A stretch of DNA of 64,000 bases from a virus. Below the pieces are notes generated by a model. The model worked only from the letters and a program-made list of their open reading frames with translations. It did no database searches and had not been told where the DNA came from. Positions 20,133 through 54,728 of this stretch are shown in pieces. Numbering within the stretch: position 1 is the first letter of the stretch; each line of letters begins with the position of its first letter. The stretch lies in IMG/VR virus record IMGVR_UViG_3300043540_000178, positions 1 to 64,000 of that record; one strand, given 5' to 3'. Position numbers and translations under genes: made by a program.

Positions 20133-20708
20133 TCATTCACAGTAAGAACTTCTCGATTTTGGTGTCTCATACCAATCAACTTGAGAAACTTTCACACCCA
20201 ATGGTTTCATTTTTTCTTTTACAATATCAAAGAGCCATTTTGATAAATTTTCACTTGTCGGAACAAAATCAACAATGAAGAATCCTTCCAATGTTTCATA
20301 AACAGGAAGGGTTGAATCAATCCCTTCTACATTGATCTCATAACCAACCAATTTATTTTCTACAAAAACTTTATCTAACTTTATATGTCGTTTTGTATTT
20401 GAGTCAACTTCCTCGTAGAGCTGTACTACCAGTGTGTTATACATAGGATCATTTATATCAATGATAAACTTATGGTCAAGTGTATCATCAAGGAAAGTTT
20501 TCAACCAACCCAGATGCTTGAAGTCTGTAACCATACCACGTTCTAGTGCATCAGCTTCAAGAAAAACATGAACCAATCCTTCATGTCCATGCAAGTGACG
20601 ACATTTACAAGATGTGTCACCTTTTTCACAGAATTGGCTTTCTAGTTTCTGACTCCACACTCTATGCCCATAACAAAACGAAAATGATTTATCAATTCTC
20701 CAACCCAT
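20133..20708 (-). CDS. queD: QueD-type 6-carboxytetrahydropterin synthase
   Basis: 191 residues. T-fold zinc site: FSFCYGHRV (His about 15) and CRHLHGHEG (His about 38-41); GMVTDFKHLGWLK (about 58-70); LDHKFI (about 77-82); PTSENLSKWL (about 150-159). It converts dihydroneopterin triphosphate from FolE into carboxytetrahydropterin for QueE. It is longer than many QueD proteins because of an insert near residues 84-115. Part of a dispersed deazaguanine pathway. Confidence 0.88.
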   Translation of the reverse strand: MGWRIDKSFSFCYGHRVWSQKLESQFCEKGDTSCKCRHLHGHEGLVHVFLEADALERGMVTDFKHLGWLKTFLDDTLDHKFIIDINDPMYNTLVVQLYEEVDSNTKRHIKLDKVFVENKLVGYEINVEGIDSTLPVYETLEGFFIVDFVPTSENLSKWLFDIVKEKMKPLGVKVSQVDWYETPKSRSSYCE

Positions 20709-23440: not shown

Positions 23441-23470
23441 TTTATTTTCCTCTGTTAATTAATAATTTTC

Positions 23471-23521
23471 ATTATATATTAATCAACTATCTTTGCAAGG
23501 TAGTTTATTAACTATCTGATT
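23471..23521 (-). promoter_or_regulatory. Sigma70-like promoter with upstream GTTA box
   Basis: Reverse strand: ATCAGATAGTTA box, 10 nt, TTGCAA, 16 bp, TATAAT. Serves two small genes and the RnlA/PseT pair. Confidence 0.75.
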
Positions 23522-23639
23522 TATTTTGGAAATTTCAATTAAATTGTAATGAAAATCAATATATTGATGGACTACATAATTCTTTCTCAGATTGTTCTAT
23601 TAAGAGAATTAAATTATTAATCATCATCCTAGATTTGAA

Positions 23640-23914
23640 CGTGATTTTGCTATTCAGCGAAAATCACGAGAATTGTCATCCTGAGTTCTCATTGTGAACT
23701 ATAGAGTCAAACCTTTAAGGTATGGTTGGGTCACGCTGTACACCATTTACTTGACTGTTTATTGTGGCGCATGATTGCAACTGCCCTATAGTCGACAATT
23801 GTTGCAATCATTGTAGGTTGCTTCACAAGCAGAGCCTACTCCGTTTTTACTACGATCTGAAAACAGCGCCACTGTCCCTGAAGGTGTGGTTGCTTTGGGA
23901 ACTAGATAATTCCC
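23640..23914. ncRNA. Candidate structured RNA
   Basis: The 501-bp gene-free stretch 23441-23941 contains a dense set of properly nested helices (coordinates on plus strand): 23640-23648/23660-23668; 23705-23710/23751-23756 enclosing 23711-23714/23718-23721 and 23722-23726/23742-23746; GTGGCGC 23764-23770 with GCGCCAC 23866-23872 enclosing an 11-bp perfect stem (23771-23781/23801-23811) and 23813-23817/23835-23839 with an inner 5-bp stem; and 23897-23901/23910-23914. Neighbouring transcription is on the minus strand, but the strand of this element is not decided. A minus-strand reading frame (about 23795-23936) lacks a usable start. Confidence 0.55.
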
Positions 23915-23941
23915 CAGGTCAGCTTTAATGATTCTTACTTA

Positions 23942-25147
23942 CTACAAATCCAGTAAACCTTTGGATTGTCCCTTTTTATTTTTTGGTTCATTTGCAGTAG
24001 TGTCTTTTATAGTTTCATTCACAATTCTTTGAGGCGCATCAAAAAATCTTGTCAATACAGTTTCACCTTTAGGAAACCTCATTACTCCACTCATAACCAT
24101 TTCGATTTTTTGGATTGCATCATCTGTTCCATCAAATAAGCATTGATGAGGCACTATTTCATCATGGGACAACCCGCGAGGTGCAACTGGAATTGTGTCA
24201 TAATATAATGCTTCAGCAAGACAATATCCAAAATTTTCTTCAATTGAATTTGTTAACATGACTTTACTTGTTGCTATTTCTTCGTGATATTGTTTTTTTG
24301 TCAGCCCTTCTTTGATTGTGATAATGCCTTGCTTTTCCATCAGATGAGCTTTCTCAATTAACCATGCTTGATTTGATTTCAACTCCTTGTTTGAAGTTGT
24401 AATCACAAATTCCCAATCTGGGTGCTTTGACTTTAATATGGCAGCAATATCTAAACTGATATTTGGACGTTTTTCATAATCAAAGCGATTTGGCATAATA
24501 ATTTTATTGATTTTATTGCTGGTAAAAATCACATTTTCACCACTGGTATCAAATGTTCGTTTAAAAGATGTTACACCTGCATATTCACTCTTGAATAACG
24601 GATTACCTGTAACGATAATCTTATCTGATAATAGCATCCAATCATCTTTGTTTGCATATGGACGAATTCTGCGTTCGATTACTGCATGCTTGTGATACTC
24701 AGAACCAACGAACACTTTATCGCAGATGCTCAACCAACCTAGTTCAGTGTACTTTTGCCACGGGGCCAACTGCTCCATAAGGTCTTCGTGAGTATAGGAT
24801 GCTGCATGTAAGAATGCATATATACGAATGTTTTTGTTATTAATCTGTGCCATCATCTTGATGGCCTCTATACCCCAATGTTCCAAGTCAAAACTGAATA
24901 CAATATCGTCATCTTTGACTTTGCCTTCTTGAAACATTTTCGCCATCGTAGCAACCTGAGTATTCTTATAATGAACTGTGCTGTTCATCGGCAACCACGA
25001 GCCAACATCAATGCTATCTGAAAGAGGCGTTCCGTCAATCACTTGTACATTATATTTTTGTGCAAACACCTTCGGAAATTCTCTATACCACTGACCGGTG
25101 TATCTTGACTCAAATGGTTCCAATGGTAAAAGCCATGCTGTATTCAT
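23942..25147 (-). CDS. GT-B glycosyltransferase
   Basis: 401 residues. Two Rossmann halves: the N-terminal one with SFDLEHWGIEAIK and FLHAASYTHED, then KVFVGSEYHKHAVIERR; the C-terminal one with IIMPNRFDYEKRPNISLDIAA (sugar-nucleotide domain start, about 216-236), LTNSIEENFGYCLAEALYY (about 296-314, the EX7E-like donor site) and a lysine-rich tail. GT4-like. Its 4-bp overlap with the gene upstream ties it to the DpdA cluster; queuosine glycosylases of tRNA are GT4-like too, so a modified DNA base is a plausible acceptor. Acceptor and sugar are inference. Confidence 0.8.
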   Translation of the reverse strand: MNTAWLLPLEPFESRYTGQWYREFPKVFAQKYNVQVIDGTPLSDSIDVGSWLPMNSTVHYKNTQVATMAKMFQEGKVKDDDIVFSFDLEHWGIEAIKMMAQINNKNIRIYAFLHAASYTHEDLMEQLAPWQKYTELGWLSICDKVFVGSEYHKHAVIERRIRPYANKDDWMLLSDKIIVTGNPLFKSEYAGVTSFKRTFDTSGENVIFTSNKINKIIMPNRFDYEKRPNISLDIAAILKSKHPDWEFVITTSNKELKSNQAWLIEKAHLMEKQGIITIKEGLTKKQYHEEIATSKVMLTNSIEENFGYCLAEALYYDTIPVAPRGLSHDEIVPHQCLFDGTDDAIQKIEMVMSGVMRFPKGETVLTRFFDAPQRIVNETIKDTTANEPKNKKGQSKGLLDL

Positions 25148-25530
25148 ATTTCAATGTCTCCGGTAAAATCTTCTGGTCGAGTAATCACCATAGTTCGTTT
25201 GGTGGTTGCAAACACTGTTAGATCTTTTGAAAATTTAATTTGATCGTTTGGATGCAAACTCCAAAATGATTCATTGTCAATCGTCAAAATGATATTTACA
25301 TTTTCGGGATGTTCAGATACTTTAGTTCGTTCAACAGTCACAATGAAGCGTTCAGTTAAATGTGTCAACTCATATAAATCAAGTATGTTATTGTGATCTG
25401 AGATGTATAAACCTCTCACATCATCAGGCACTTCAATTTTGAAGTTCTCATTGCTGATTTCATATGCAGTACAAAACAATGTTTTTATACCGCACAAACG
25501 ACCTTCTACTTCAATACCAATTTTTGCCAT
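25144..25530 (-). CDS. Unknown protein of the deazaguanine cluster
   Basis: 128 residues from an ATG at 25530 (overlapping the upstream stop, TAATG). Opens KIGIEVEGRLCGIKTLFC, then IEVPDDVRGLYISDHNN, and ends TRPEDFTGDIEI: mostly beta, acidic. It overlaps its neighbours on both sides, so it is translated with the glycosyltransferase and the PIG-L fusion. I do not recognise the family. Confidence 0.6.
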   Translation of the reverse strand: MAKIGIEVEGRLCGIKTLFCTAYEISNENFKIEVPDDVRGLYISDHNNILDLYELTHLTERFIVTVERTKVSEHPENVNIILTIDNESFWSLHPNDQIKFSKDLTVFATTKRTMVITRPEDFTGDIEI

Positions 25531-26351
25531 TATGCAAGATACTCCGTTACGCAACCATTTTCGTCATCTTCACTCACTTCTATGGTCAAAGAACGACCTG
25601 GGTATTTATTCTTTATCTTCAATGATAATTCATCGGCAAGCATTTCGCAAGATTTGAAATCTAGTTTAAGAGTTCCATCACCATAGAGAGATTCACACCA
25701 CCTCTTAAACTGAATAAACTCAATATCACGGTCATCGTGAAATACCTCAATTTGAACTTTGAAATGAAACATGTGCCGATGCGGATACCCTAGGAAACTC
25801 ACATCTTTCAACTTAGGGTCAGCCAATGCTGCTGGGTATTGATGTATTCCTTCTTTCTGAAACTTTATCCAAATCTTACAAACATCATCTTTTTTTGTCA
25901 GAGACTCAAACAAAAAGTACTTCTCATTCGCAAATAGTTTGTGTTGTGATGGGTAAAGTGTCAATAAAGTTTTTTCTTTTTCGACTTGTAATTCTTCAGA
26001 AAGAATATCAAATTTAGTGTTCATATCTATTGAATAATATTGTAGTTTATACATGTGCAAATTTTGCTTTGCAAACCGATTGACAGACTTATGATGTGGG
26101 TGGACATCATGTATATTTGGAACCAAGAAAATTGTCTCAGGATCTTCTTGTTTGATTGATATCGTTTCATTTTTCAAGAATATAGGCTCGAAGTTGAATA
26201 ATTCTGCTGCTCTTTTTGCCTCTGCAATTCGTTCTTCAGTCAGGTCATAAAAATAATAAACTTTACTAACCAAACCAGCTTTTAGCAATCTGAAACACCC
26301 TATAACATCGTCATCAATATGCGGCGACAGTATCACTACATTTTTCATCAT
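25530..26351 (-). CDS. PIG-L-type deacetylase fused to a QueD-like T-fold domain
   Basis: 273 residues. Start at 26351 (ATG after GAAGAG). The N-terminal domain has SPHIDDDVIG (about 8-17) and VHPHHKS (about 81-87), the zinc ligands of PIG-L/GlcNAc deacetylases. The C-terminal domain (about 150-273) reads YPHRHMFHFKVQIEVFH, RDIEFIQFKRW, LDFKSCEMLADEL and LTIEVSEDDENG, with the strand-helix order of QueD-type T-folds, but the standard zinc triad is not clear. Overlaps the PP-loop gene by 38 bp. Expected chemistry: de-N-acylation of a sugar or amide. Confidence 0.7.
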   Translation of the reverse strand: MMKNVVILSPHIDDDVIGCFRLLKAGLVSKVYYFYDLTEERIAEAKRAAELFNFEPIFLKNETISIKQEDPETIFLVPNIHDVHPHHKSVNRFAKQNLHMYKLQYYSIDMNTKFDILSEELQVEKEKTLLTLYPSQHKLFANEKYFLFESLTKKDDVCKIWIKFQKEGIHQYPAALADPKLKDVSFLGYPHRHMFHFKVQIEVFHDDRDIEFIQFKRWCESLYGDGTLKLDFKSCEMLADELSLKIKNKYPGRSLTIEVSEDDENGCVTEYLA

Positions 26352-26940
26352 AACTCTTCTTTCTTTGGAGATAATCAACAACTTCACCATTCACAAAATA
26401 CTCTTGTGACATAGGTATTTCATTCTCATGTAGATAGTCAAAAACATCATCGTCTGTCCAATCATAAATTGGATATAACATACTCAAGTCGAATATGCCT
26501 CTTTCTACAAATGATGGCATATCTTTTCGACTGATTTTTTCACCGTTGACAATGATTTCAGAACTCTTGCCCGGCCTATTCCATTCACTTCGTCTAGCAC
26601 CATCAATTTGGCATTTCAGCATATTTTTTGCTATCCAATTTGGCATTTTGCTTGAGTGCATGAACTGGACTTCATATTTGGTGCCGACCATTTTATATAA
26701 AAACTGTAAAGTCAGTTCGTGCATTGCTGTTAGTTTGGCGACGTCGTCCTCTGTTTCATTTAGTAGAGGTTTAACGTTGTGAACAATTGTTAGTTCATGT
26801 GGCTTTATAACTTGACTTGTTAAGTGTAGTACAACAGTTGAATCTTTCCCGCCTGAGTGTCCCAAAAACAGACCCGAACCAAATTTGTTTTTTGCATCAC
26901 GAATTAATTGTAATGCAGAATCAACTTTACTTACATTCAT
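26314..26940 (-). CDS. PP-loop ATPase of the PAPS-reductase family
   Basis: 208 residues. P-loop LGHSGGKDSTVV (about 26-37), then the family's C-terminal YPIYDWTDDDVFDYLHENEIP (split: YPIYDWTDDDVF about 162-173). Related enzymes include CysH and DndC; they activate a carbonyl or phosphate with ATP. No QueC-like CxxC zinc site is visible. Between DpdA and the PIG-L fusion, overlapping both, it may take the place of QueC or build a side chain. Confidence 0.8.
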   Translation of the reverse strand: MNVSKVDSALQLIRDAKNKFGSGLFLGHSGGKDSTVVLHLTSQVIKPHELTIVHNVKPLLNETEDDVAKLTAMHELTLQFLYKMVGTKYEVQFMHSSKMPNWIAKNMLKCQIDGARRSEWNRPGKSSEIIVNGEKISRKDMPSFVERGIFDLSMLYPIYDWTDDDVFDYLHENEIPMSQEYFVNGEVVDYLQRKKSYDEKCSDTVAAY

Positions 26941-28216
26941 ATAAAAACTCCTCTAATGATGATCCATTATCTTCAATAGATGCAGTTCTTTTGCTATCAA
27001 AGTATTTACCGTATTCACGCTTCCATTTCTTAAAATCATCAACGGTGTTCAAATGTTCAAGTGTGTGGTACATACCTTCATATTTCTTCTTGGTTTTACT
27101 AACATAATTTGACTCATTTTTCAACTTATCAACCATCTCAAATAAGTTGTGCACCGAGAACAATAGCAGTGCAAAACGAATGTTGTTTAAGTCACACATT
27201 GCTTGAACATTATCTTCAGGGTTTCCAGTTTTGGCAACTCTATCTTCCGCTGATAATAATAGATTATCATGGAACTGTTCTTCTGTAAAGTTCAATCCTA
27301 GTTTAGTCTTTTGGAATGTGTCAAAAAGATGCCAGATTTTCCAATATGTTTGAGTGCGATGTCGACCAATCATCCAAATCTGACTGCCAACTTGTATTTG
27401 TGAACGTATTACACCTCCGGTATGTTTTGTACTGTCATATGAGATTAGTTGATTTTCTTTGAACAAATGCTGTAGCTTCATCAATGTTTGAATTCTATTT
27501 GGACTCCCAACCCCCAGTAAATGGAAATGATTTGTTAAATTGTCCGGTACTTGCAATTTCGCTAAGGTGAAGTATCGTTCAACATCCTCTAACTCACCAT
27601 TACCCAAACATCCACCACCAGATGCAATACCTGCTAGTTTAGCTTGATAATCTTGAGGAATATGTTTCAACAACTTATCTGCCCATTCTTGATACGTGTC
27701 AATATCATTCCCCTGAATAATCATAAACGGTTTACATTTTGTTTGCAATTCGTCAAACACATCAATTTGCTTACAAATATTTCTGGCAGTTTGCTTGGTG
27801 CACTCATCAACCATGCTCCTGTCATATTTTCGATTTTCACTATTGACGAATTGACTTTTTCCCTCTGTTCTTAGTGGGATCTCATCAAAACACATTGCAT
27901 GGGTTCCATACTTTGCCTGAACTCGATAAACTTTATCTCGAAGTTCATCATTTGGTGTATGACCAAGGGTAATCATTTGCAATCCACCAGAGTCGACTTG
28001 AATTGAATATGGTGAGAAATAATCAACATGATATTGACCATCATCCGGTTCATTATATGCATTGAATAATACACCAAAAGAATGATAATCATACCATGAG
28101 TTTACCTTGTGTACCATATCGTGGATAGGTTTCAAGGCTTCAGGTGTACTCAATCTCACAAACTGAGAACTGAATACAAATGAGAGTGCAGACGCAATGT
28201 ATTCTAACCGAGGCAT
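26927..28216 (-). CDS. dpdA: DpdA-type DNA guanine transglycosylase (TGT-like)
   Basis: 429 residues. TGT-fold marks: VDSGGLQM (about 74-81; Asp acid), FDEIP (about 110-114), LAGIASGGGCLG (about 193-204), HLLGVGSPNRI (about 232-242), and SYDSTKHTGG (about 261-270; likely nucleophile Asp). The RNA-binding and zinc C-terminal part of tRNA TGTs is replaced by an unrelated helical region, as in phage DpdA. DpdA swaps guanine in DNA for a 7-deazaguanine, protecting it from restriction. FolE follows 10 bp upstream. Confidence 0.88.
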   Translation of the reverse strand: MPRLEYIASALSFVFSSQFVRLSTPEALKPIHDMVHKVNSWYDYHSFGVLFNAYNEPDDGQYHVDYFSPYSIQVDSGGLQMITLGHTPNDELRDKVYRVQAKYGTHAMCFDEIPLRTEGKSQFVNSENRKYDRSMVDECTKQTARNICKQIDVFDELQTKCKPFMIIQGNDIDTYQEWADKLLKHIPQDYQAKLAGIASGGGCLGNGELEDVERYFTLAKLQVPDNLTNHFHLLGVGSPNRIQTLMKLQHLFKENQLISYDSTKHTGGVIRSQIQVGSQIWMIGRHRTQTYWKIWHLFDTFQKTKLGLNFTEEQFHDNLLLSAEDRVAKTGNPEDNVQAMCDLNNIRFALLLFSVHNLFEMVDKLKNESNYVSKTKKKYEGMYHTLEHLNTVDDFKKWKREYGKYFDSKRTASIEDNGSSLEEFLYECK

Positions 28217-28225
28217 AATATTGTT

Positions 28226-28891
28226 TTATCTTGCAAGAGACATGAACTCAGATCGCACTGGACCTTCTTTGAAAACACCACCCAACGCACTGGTGCTTGT
28301 ATGAGATGATTGATCTTGGATACCGCGACTCTTGACGCAATAGTGCGTAGCATCAATAACAACAGCAACATCTTCTGTATCAAGAATAAATTTCATGGTC
28401 TCAAAAATTTGGGCTGTTAGTCGTTCTTGCACTTGAGGACGACGAGAGAAGTAGTTAACCACCCGATTAATCTTACTCAATCCAATTACTTTATTTTTAG
28501 GAATGTATGCAACAGATGCTTTACCATCAATTACCACACCATGATGTTCGCATTGTGACATAACTGCAATGTCTTTTTCCACAAGCATTTCATTGTACTT
28601 CATCTTGTTATCAATGGTGGTTATCTTTGGGAAATTATCAGGCGACAATCCCCAATAAATTTCTTTGACAAACATCTTTGCAATTCTGCGTGGAGTATCT
28701 GCAAGTGAATCATCGTTCATATTAAGACCAAGAATTTCCCAAATAGATTTTGTATGAAACTCGATTTCTTCTAGTTTATATGCGTCATCAAGTTTCAATT
28801 TATCAGTGGTTGGTGTTTGAAGTCCCAAACTGATAAGATGATTTTCTACTTTTTGACCCAAAACTGGATCGGTTTTGCCAATATGTGACAT
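28226..28891 (-). CDS. folE: GTP cyclohydrolase I (FolE)
   Basis: 221 residues; ATG at 28891 follows AAAGGG (an earlier ATG does not). Zinc Cys/His: SQCEHHGV (about 112-119) and HYCVKSRG (about 183-190); also DTPRRIAKM (about 46-54) and GLSKINRVV. It makes dihydroneopterin triphosphate, the first step to QueD. Directly downstream of it is dpdA, so the pair is one transcript. Confidence 0.95.
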   Translation of the reverse strand: MSHIGKTDPVLGQKVENHLISLGLQTPTTDKLKLDDAYKLEEIEFHTKSIWEILGLNMNDDSLADTPRRIAKMFVKEIYWGLSPDNFPKITTIDNKMKYNEMLVEKDIAVMSQCEHHGVVIDGKASVAYIPKNKVIGLSKINRVVNYFSRRPQVQERLTAQIFETMKFILDTEDVAVVIDATHYCVKSRGIQDQSSHTSTSALGGVFKEGPVRSEFMSLAR

Positions 28892-28949
28892 ATTAATCCC
28901 TTTCATAATTAACGCATTAAGTATAACAACCTATATCAATTTAATCAAA

Positions 28950-53386: not shown

Positions 53387-53842
53387 TTACTCATGCTCCC
53401 AAGGAAATTGAATCCATCTATTGTCAATGCTTCTGTCAATAACACGACTATAAAAGTCTACAGTAGATTTATTTTGTGATGGATTATACCATAGTGCGGC
53501 ATACTTTAAATTATCTTTAATATCAAACATTCTCTCTTTTAAGAGATGAAGTGTATCACCAGTATCAACAATATCATCTATGAGCAGATATTTTTTGCCG
53601 GATGCCGCTTGAGCTGCAATTTTATCCACAGCAAATGTATCTTTCTTTTTTCCATCACGCAATGACCAATTAATATAATGTGCTGGTACATCAAAGTAAT
53701 GAGATGCAATTGTGGCAGGTATCACACCACCTCTTGCAAGTCCAATAATTCCATTTGGAATGAAATTGCTTTCTTTAATCGCATTACAAATACAGATAGT
53801 ATCTGTGTACATCTCATCCCATTTGTAGTAAATCTTTTCCAT
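53387..53842 (-). CDS. Purine phosphoribosyltransferase
   Basis: 151 residues. LARGGVIPATIASHYF (about 35-50), PRPP motif YLLIDDIVDTGDTLH (about 89-103), then YNPSQNKSTVDFY. Like Gpt/Xpt-type enzymes that salvage guanine, xanthine or hypoxanthine to nucleotides. Eight bp downstream of queE, so it may be part of the deazaguanine supply or general salvage. Confidence 0.8.
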   Translation of the reverse strand: MEKIYYKWDEMYTDTICICNAIKESNFIPNGIIGLARGGVIPATIASHYFDVPAHYINWSLRDGKKKDTFAVDKIAAQAASGKKYLLIDDIVDTGDTLHLLKERMFDIKDNLKYAALWYNPSQNKSTVDFYSRVIDRSIDNRWIQFPWEHE

Positions 53843-53849
53843 TTAGTCC

Positions 53850-54728
53850 TCATGCATCAATTGCATTACCCAAAGTTACAACATGTAACCGGCCGCTTAT
53901 ATTATATCCTTCTGAAATTGCACGTTTTGTAATATGTTCAATCTGTTTGTAATTGGTTTGCTGGTCGTATGAACTACCAACTGGCATTATATAAATTGAA
54001 GGAAACCATCCAAGATTATTCGCCAAATCTTCATACTTCAATTTTAATTCTTTCCATGCTACATCTGAATTATTTACAACTACCTTTAAATCAATTGAAT
54101 CCGAATTTTCAGCCAAATTCTGAATTGTATTTGCATTCCATGTATATTCTTCACCAGATACATTATGTAACTTTAGAGATACGTTAAAATGTACATGCAT
54201 ATCTGATAATGCATGTATTAAATCAGATGACATTTCGCAAGTGCCATTTGTTTCAAATTGAATGATGGGTGGGATCTTATTCTGAAATTCATCTGATTGA
54301 AACATCTCACAAAGAGATTTTTGTTGCAACAGTGGCTCACCACCGGTTATACAAAGATGAATATCATTATGCGTGAACGGATGATACCATTGTTTATGCC
54401 CAAAACCATCAGTGGGTAAATAATCCATAATCTCTTTCATCACATCGGATGGTTCCATATCACGTCTCAAATGCTTAAAGCGAGGGTCAATTGCATACAA
54501 TGTATCACATCCGTACTCAACAACTGGAAAATCATCTAATTTAGTAATTAATTTTGGATCAAACTCAATTGGTTTGATGTATGTCGATGGGTCAGCCGGA
54601 TTTGGTTGACTGAATCCAGGACATTTTAGATTGCAACCGAATAAACGAAGCCATATAGCCAATTTCCCTGTATATCTGCCCTCACCTTGAAAAGAATAGA
54701 AGGTTTGTGACACTTTGAGTTTACTCAT
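53850..54728 (-). CDS. queE: QueE, 7-carboxy-7-deazaguanine synthase (radical SAM)
   Basis: 292 residues. FYSFQGEGRYTGKLAIWLRLFGCNLKC (split: GCNLKC, about 31-36), then an insert of about 50 residues, then EYGCDTLYA (about 71-79): the third cluster cysteine, normally two residues on, is displaced by the insert. CITGGEPLLQQ (about 126-136) and FETNGT are the SAM sites. Makes CDG from carboxytetrahydropterin. Confidence 0.88.
   Translation of the reverse strand: MSKLKVSQTFYSFQGEGRYTGKLAIWLRLFGCNLKCPGFSQPNPADPSTYIKPIEFDPKLITKLDDFPVVEYGCDTLYAIDPRFKHLRRDMEPSDVMKEIMDYLPTDGFGHKQWYHPFTHNDIHLCITGGEPLLQQKSLCEMFQSDEFQNKIPPIIQFETNGTCEMSSDLIHALSDMHVHFNVSLKLHNVSGEEYTWNANTIQNLAENSDSIDLKVVVNNSDVAWKELKLKYEDLANNLGWFPSIYIMPVGSSYDQQTNYKQIEHITKRAISEGYNISGRLHVVTLGNAIDA

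Follow-up and report, generated by a model that had tools for sequence, protein, structure and literature searches.

The stretch of DNA analyzed here, referred to below as the window, comprises bases 1 to 64,000 of the 70,863-bp virus record IMGVR_UViG_3300043540_000178. Judged from the map of open reading frames (ORFs), its gene content is that of a fragment of a T4-like myovirus (T4-type polymerase, recombinase, helicase, clamp loader, and tail genes), with 35% G+C and 11 tRNA genes. A preliminary description of the window drew attention to a single run containing folE, dpdA, a PP-loop ATPase gene (PPL), a fusion of a PIG-L domain and a T-fold domain (TF), a small gene designated UNK, and a glycosyltransferase gene (GT). 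It proposed that the phage may carry a glycosylated or amino-sugar 7-deazaguanine made from 7-carboxy-7-deazaguanine (CDG) by the PP-loop enzyme instead of QueC. All six ORFs are open, located on the minus strand, and arranged in the order described, and five of the six genes overlap a neighbor. The overlaps of UNK and GT shrink to 1–4 nt with likelier start codons, and overlaps of this predicted length are typical of coupled translation. The gene families had also been named correctly, with the qualification that DpdA and PIG-L are only weakly recognized by general profiles and required family-level tests, and queD and queE were found outside the run, as reported. The features are as follows, with the expectation values (E) of profile matches in parentheses.

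28226–28906, minus strand: folE, GTP cyclohydrolase I, catalyzing the first reaction on the way to CDG (Pfam GTP_cyclohydroI, 4e-57; phrog_2197, 1.7e-70); the second ATG, at 28891, is the end coordinate of the preliminary description.
26927–28216, minus strand: dpdA, predicted DNA guanine transglycosylase of the KVP40/nt-1 (DpdA2-like) group (phrog_10773, 8e-84).
26314–26940, minus strand: PPL, short PP-loop ATP pyrophosphatase of the phosphoadenosine phosphosulfate (PAPS) reductase type, CysD/FAD-synthase-like (PAPS_reduct, 5.7e-12).
25530–26390, minus strand: PIG-L/T-fold fusion gene, with a likelier start at the ATG at 26351.
25875–26351, minus strand: PIG-L-type deacetylase domain, making up the N-terminal portion of the fusion (motifs PHxDD(E) and DxHxxH; family match to PF02585).
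25530–25889, minus strand: TF, QueD-like T-fold domain making up the C-terminal portion of the fusion, candidate CDG-processing enzyme (phrog_17812, 1.5e-36).
25144–25530, minus strand: UNK, small protein without known profile, 31 relatives (ORF 25144–25554; likelier start at the ATG at 25530).
23942–25147, minus strand: GT, GT-B glycosyltransferase, putatively GT4-like (Glycos_transf_1, 2.1e-10, over the cut-off).
20133–20708, minus strand: queD, 6-carboxytetrahydropterin synthase (PTPS, 7.7e-27; phrog_2389, 7.1e-35).
53850–54728, minus strand: queE, CDG synthase of the radical S-adenosylmethionine type with an atypical Cys motif (alignment with QueE of X1, ACP17, BUCT-ZZ01, Moby, and other phages).

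The conversion of GTP into CDG by FolE, QueD, and QueE is an established pathway, as is the exchange of guanine for a 7-deazaguanine by DpdA. The gene set of the window is a variant of 7-deazaguanine DNA modification, one that would amount to more only if nucleosides bearing a sugar exist.

The presence of QueC was assessed with the family cut-off of PF06508. The window contains no queC, in agreement with the preliminary description, and none was found across the whole 70,863-bp record; the record being a fragment, absence from the entire phage rests on complete relatives. Among 14 whole records bearing GT, TF was present in all (14/14) and QueC over the cut-off in none (0/14), Xanthomonas phage X1 displaying only a sub-threshold PP-loop match to QueC located far from the locus. 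All three of the phages that possess DpdA without TF (Moby, pf16, and KVP40) have QueC. Among the annotated phages with TF (n = 10), a QueC-like match over the cut-off was obtained for D479 only, and D479 lacks GT. TF and QueC almost exclude one another and, because of this phyletic pattern, CDG is the point at which the system branches off the known route. The same pattern indicates that the T-fold protein, not the PP-loop enzyme, fills QueC's place.

The QueC expected of a member of the phage dpd pathway of the 7-cyano-7-deazaguanine (preQ0) type is missing from the record and from all GT-bearing genomes searched. FolE, QueD, QueE, a DpdA2-like DpdA, and the precursor CDG are common to the window and to phages 9g, CAjan, and nt-1, which belong to the group containing the deoxynucleosides of preQ0, G+, or preQ1 (dPreQ0, dG+, and dPreQ1) (PMC6884629). 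In contrast to dPreQ0-type phages, the system of the window lacks QueC and additionally comprises TF, GT, PIG-L, PPL, and UNK. Its product must therefore differ from preQ0 derivatives.

In most phages, a separate gene encodes TF (phrog_17812); in the window, TF is fused to PIG-L. The AlphaFold model of TF (predicted local distance difference test score, pLDDT, of 95.5) has the T-fold topology and resembles E. coli QueD (template modeling score of 0.73, E of 2.6e-6), as well as PTPS and, more weakly, QueF-like proteins. Residues H16, H37, H39, S80-C81-E82, and E107-D108 are invariant in 43 relatives. H16, H37, H39, and E107 align with the metal-binding His triad and the substrate Glu of the PTPS/QueD fold (PH0634), which predicts metal binding by TF. 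A catalytic Cys preceding the HxH motif, as found in QueD, is not conserved in the 43 relatives of TF, in which Cys81 of the SCE motif is invariant instead. According to the model, TF has a QueD-like fold, yet it is not QueD, which is encoded separately. Cellulophaga phage phiST has TF beside folE, queD, and queE in the absence of queC, and this pattern is consistent with a DpdL-type CDG decarboxylase, which we take to be the probable function of TF. NCBIfam provides no name for TF, PIG-L, or UNK.

Other fusions of TF were observed. One contig (L147, 7968–8864) encodes TF joined to a MazG pyrophosphohydrolase domain, and MazG adjoins TF in phiST (L006, 7406–8330), a possible role of MazG in this context being control of the dGTP pool. 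TF is also fused to N-terminal regions of about 200–270 residues without Pfam match in two loci (L010, 7212–8363; L060, 8789–9727).

A reciprocal neighborhood analysis was performed in IMG/VR, annotated phages, and GTDB genomes. A GT profile search ignoring neighbors returned 80 loci, and a PP-loop search returned 27. Close PPL relatives (threshold of E<1e-20) were present in 19 distinct contigs, drawn from the window, X1, the GT loci, and the loci of the PP-loop search; many of the contigs are mutually related, and the counts do not represent independent events. In these 19 contigs, PIG-L and GT were always found (19/19 each), UNK and a TF in sight were each found in 16, and the order PPL-PIGL-UNK-GT was maintained in most. 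PIG-L occurred in 20 contigs, 19 of which had PPL. GT and TF were found together in 98 of 114 contigs, with queC in none (0/114). Of the loci anchored on GT, 35 extended 6 kb or more to each side; these contained TF in 33 cases, a DpdA/TGT-like gene (TGT, tRNA-guanine transglycosylase) in 33, folE in 32, and queE in 28. Thirteen loci reached only via unrelated PP-loop genes served as a background set, and the other families were found in none of them (0/13). In bacterial and archaeal assemblies anchored on TF (25 loci), GT was found in 17, DpdA in 17, FolE/QueD/QueE in 18, and QueC in 0. Cultured phage X1 has every part as a separate gene in one run. Seen from three different anchors (GT, PPL, and TF), the gene association is real and not a chance gathering. 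The finding is stronger than the preliminary description could have known because it is common to cultured phages and many contigs. A scan of IMG/VR with DpdA alone confirmed nothing, and megablast of the region against phages gave no match.

The GT/TF loci come from phages of the cyanophage, T4-like, and jumbo types and from Magnetospirillum genomes; that of Magnetospirillum aberrantis SpK encodes GT, TF, and QueD. Magnetospirillum genomes, including isolates (L136, L137, L138, and L143), harbor a GT-TF tandem with DpdA and/or QueD adjoining in several cases, and Magnetospirillum sp. 64-120 has two such contigs (L138 and L139); these loci are possibly prophages or modification islands.

GT belongs to a family whose profile matches solved GT-B enzymes (Gtf1, WbaZ-1, WlaC, and D-inositol-3-phosphate glycosyltransferase) at E-values up to 2.8e-7. 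The protein of the window has the EX7E (E304–E312) and RX4K (R221–K226) motifs, of which R221, K226, and E312 are invariant in an alignment of 37 relatives, and these hallmark motifs predict a retaining GT4-like enzyme. Family members are distinguished by a common LEPxExRYTxQW start, and 16 of the 37 match phrog_2170 (glycosyltransferase). The locus of Synechococcus phage BUCT-ZZ01 has the core set of TF, GT, and DpdA, and neither PPL nor PIG-L was seen in it. There, folE and dpdA flank a second, distantly GT-like gene (UTS52035; L004, 5656–6999), which matches the GT profile with an E of 1e-5.

Phage-borne glycosyltransferases often alter surface polysaccharides. GT, PIG-L, PPL, and UNK might accordingly modify something else, such as a surface glycan, and be encoded next door to a system producing a known CDG-derived base only, either 2'-deoxy-7-deazaguanosine (dDG), as the product of a T-fold enzyme of the DpdL type, or its 7-carboxy derivative (dCDG). 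Both are known phage bases, reportedly described by Cui and colleagues in 2023 in phages with DpdL, which are said to use a CDG branch without QueC, as here; GT, UNK, PPL, and PIG-L are not known to belong to the system described there. The existence of TF phages without GT also fits this explanation. Against it, GT without TF was observed in none of the 14 whole records, and 33 of the 35 well-flanked GT loci had TF and DpdA-like genes. In addition, the association holds from cyanophages to T4-like and jumbo phages and Magnetospirillum, and 8 contigs encode PIG-L and TF as a fusion. We consider a known base accompanied by unrelated sugar enzymes to be rather unlikely.

The PIG-L domain of the window is weakly recognized as a single sequence (PF02585, E of 0.17, 12.8 bits versus a cut-off of 28.2). 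Matches to PF02585 were obtained for 13 of 18 relatives (best E of 1.8e-6), and the active-site residues of the PHxDD(E) and DxHxxH motifs are invariant or nearly so in the 18 relatives. PIG-L is therefore likely to be a metal-dependent de-N-acetylase. PIG-L and TF form a single polypeptide in the window and in contigs L015/L096, L095, L099, and L018 to L021 (8 contigs in total); because of this gene fusion, the putative deacetylase is tied to a deazaguanine enzyme.

PPL exceeds the cut-off of PF01507 (46.4 versus 22.5 bits), and its SGGKDS and DG motifs are invariant in 14 relatives. Among solved structures, PPL comes closest to CysD and to the PAPS domain of FAD synthase (E of about 5e-8 in both cases), both of them involved in nucleotidyl transfer. 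PPL has no PF06508 match, and QueC is absent among the solved relatives found. Given its linkage to PIG-L, PPL most likely takes part in the step involving the amino sugar. PPL might alternatively replace QueC by joining CDG directly to the amine of the sugar deacetylated by PIG-L, generating a CDG amide, with TF in a supporting role. PPL and PIG-L do travel together in the absence of QueC, and QueC-family PP-loop relatives have been proposed to join CDG to a protein N-terminus (PMC13329287; PMC13279940). However, most TF-GT phages lack PPL, PIG-L, and QueC alike, so PPL is not a general substitute, and PPL is nearer to FAD synthase and CysD than to QueC, whose profile it does not match. Direct amide formation by PPL consequently appears improbable.

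The proposal of the preliminary description was half right. A deazaguanine made from CDG by a route other than QueC is in agreement with the lack of queC and with the linkage to the pathway of a GT4-type glycosyltransferase and a PIG-L with a complete active site. Its assignment of QueC's role to the PP-loop enzyme did not hold: PPL is found in a minority of the phages only, nearly always with PIG-L, most TF-GT phages lack it, and TF is present in every GT genome tested. PPL was accordingly rejected as a general QueC substitute.

UNK has five invariant residues in 31 relatives, and its AlphaFold model has a pLDDT of 95.5. It accompanies PPL-PIGL-GT and many TF-GT loci, even those without PPL and PIG-L. 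None of the 31 members matches any PHROG, a search of a viral structure library returned a single, unnamed relative, and comparisons with DpdA and with PIG-L revealed nothing. A degenerate QueE was considered for UNK in view of its IEVEGR..G..TLF start and of the top Foldseek match (E. coli QueE, E of 0.4, match probability of 0.60). This assignment was rejected since profile-profile comparison aligned only 18 residues, with a match probability of 1.6%.

DpdA of the window is weakly recognized by the general TGT profile (E of 0.0055) and is related to the proteins of X1, ACP17, BUCT-ZZ01, Moby, pf16, and KVP40. The DSGGLQ, FDEIP, and YDSxxH motifs are invariant or nearly so, and the Asp residues of the catalytic motifs (D76, D112, and D262) are invariant in 14 DpdA sequences, including that of the window, as found in the DpdA/TGT superfamily. 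More distant DpdA/TGT-like subfamilies adjoin GT in other phages. DpdA is a distant TGT homologue, the phage has 11 tRNA genes, and GT4 enzymes glycosylate queuosine in animals. Thus, the product might be a queuosine-like glycosylated base set in tRNA by a TGT-like enzyme, comparable to animal mannosyl- and galactosyl-queuosine. Yet DpdA belongs to the KVP40/nt-1 group, and Vibrio phage nt-1, which shares its genus with KVP40, encodes DpdA2 and contains dPreQ0 in its genomic DNA (PMC6884629; PMC12028318), for which reason DNA rather than tRNA is, by analogy, the likely target of the window DpdA. Moreover, QueA, QueG, and QueH were not found in the viruses of the former study (PMC6884629). A tRNA substrate is thus highly improbable.

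Together, the data lead us to propose, with the arguments for and against about evenly balanced, that a CDG-derived 7-deazaguanine is placed in phage DNA by DpdA and then elaborated with a sugar by GT, PIG-L, and PPL. TF would process CDG in QueC's stead, most likely by decarboxylation to 7-deazaguanine if TF is DpdL. DpdA would swap guanine in DNA for the product of TF, as suggested by its family and conserved active site. The near-obligate association of GT with these genes suggests that GT would glycosylate the base, with a nucleotide sugar as the donor, either in DNA or before insertion. In the phage of the window and in about 19 other contigs, PIG-L would strip the N-acetyl group to generate an amino sugar. 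PPL would then adenylate a carboxylate or a phosphate in order to elaborate or couple this amino sugar. UNK may be a helper, and the purpose of the modification would be to shield DNA from restriction or another DNA-targeting defense. A like order of retaining GT4, deacetylase, and amine-using enzyme is found in mycothiol and bacillithiol synthesis (MshA/BshA, MshB/BshB, and MshC/BshC, respectively), although this is an analogy only: here a PP-loop enzyme takes the place of MshC/BshC, and the predicted acceptor is a DNA base rather than inositol phosphate or malate.

If TF decarboxylates CDG, the sugar would need to be located at C7 itself, as a C-glycoside, or on another atom. In 7-deazaguanine, C7 is a pyrrole-type carbon of nucleophilic character, and the C-mannosylation of tryptophan offers a chemical precedent. 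If TF leaves the carboxylate in place, the latter could bear the sugar as an ester or an amide; proposed protein deazaguanylation offers a precedent, from PP-loop enzymes of the QueC family, for linking CDG to amines other than ammonia (PMC13329287). The fuller form of the proposal, in which phage DNA commonly carries a sugar on a CDG-derived base (possibly a C7 C-glycoside if CDG is decarboxylated) and, in the phage of the window, an amino sugar coupled further by PPL, is held a little more tentatively. Gene content, order, co-occurrence, fusion, active sites, and the absence of QueC are what the sequence gives; from these we infer the sugar, the position that carries it, and the sequence of steps.

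Several points weigh against this proposal. The record containing the window is a fragment. Five complete genomes with TF have no GT (RHph_I1_18, phiST, Ahp1, Bakedbeans, and D479), and TF alone therefore yields a usable product. Gene neighborhood alone is compatible with tRNA as the target of a TGT-like enzyme, and PPL could act elsewhere. A base decarboxylated by TF would have no obvious oxygen or nitrogen handle at C7 for a sugar.

Additional features were detected at or near the genes of the pathway. QueE of the window (53850–54728) and most of its phage relatives retain C32 and C36 and lack the third Cys of the CX3CX2C motif, a conserved Cys in a GCD motif being located about 40 residues further on; ligation of the [4Fe-4S] cluster may thus be unusual. 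A phosphoribosyltransferase gene adjoins queE (53387–53842, minus strand; Pribosyltran, 9.8e-13), and its family recurs in 27 other TF/GT loci. The enzyme may salvage guanine released by DpdA. In Stenotrophomonas phage Moby, an inositol-3-phosphate synthase gene (L012, 5505–6755) is located between folE and queC/dpdA. The non-coding stretch directly 3' of GT (23470–23941, minus strand) has a G+C content of 0.41–0.45 in its 5' part versus about 0.22 just downstream, and positions 23600–23941 fold better than shuffled sequences (z of -3.75). No Rfam family matches this stretch, and the loci retrieved contain no clear homologue; a complementary GACTATAG/CTATAGTT pair recalls a group I intron core, which was not confirmed.

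The groups carried by known phage 7-deazaguanines are small (cyano, amide, amidino, aminomethyl, formyl, methyl, carboxy, or none). A literature search, beyond the reach of which most subscription papers lay, found no report of a glycosylated deazaguanine in DNA. Two known systems offer proposed likenesses. In mannosyl- and galactosyl-queuosine, a GT4-like enzyme acts on a 7-deazaguanine nucleoside, but in tRNA and on the cyclopentenediol of queuosine, which is absent here. In T4-type glucosyl- and arabinosyl-hydroxymethylcytosine, a phage glycosyltransferase acts on a modified DNA base to counter restriction and CRISPR, whereas the deazaguanine of the window would be introduced by base exchange, not as a hydroxymethylcytosine placed by the polymerase, and the glycosyltransferase is of another family. 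If the proposal is correct, it predicts what unnamed genes do in X1, ACP17, BUCT-ZZ01, Phosso, and PA5oct, all of them cultured phages, and would reveal a form of DNA base chemistry that is widely distributed among T4-like phages, cyanophages, and jumbo phages as well as bacterial genomes. A sugar-bearing deazaguanine would then unite two anti-restriction strategies, base replacement by transglycosylation and DNA glycosylation, in one system.

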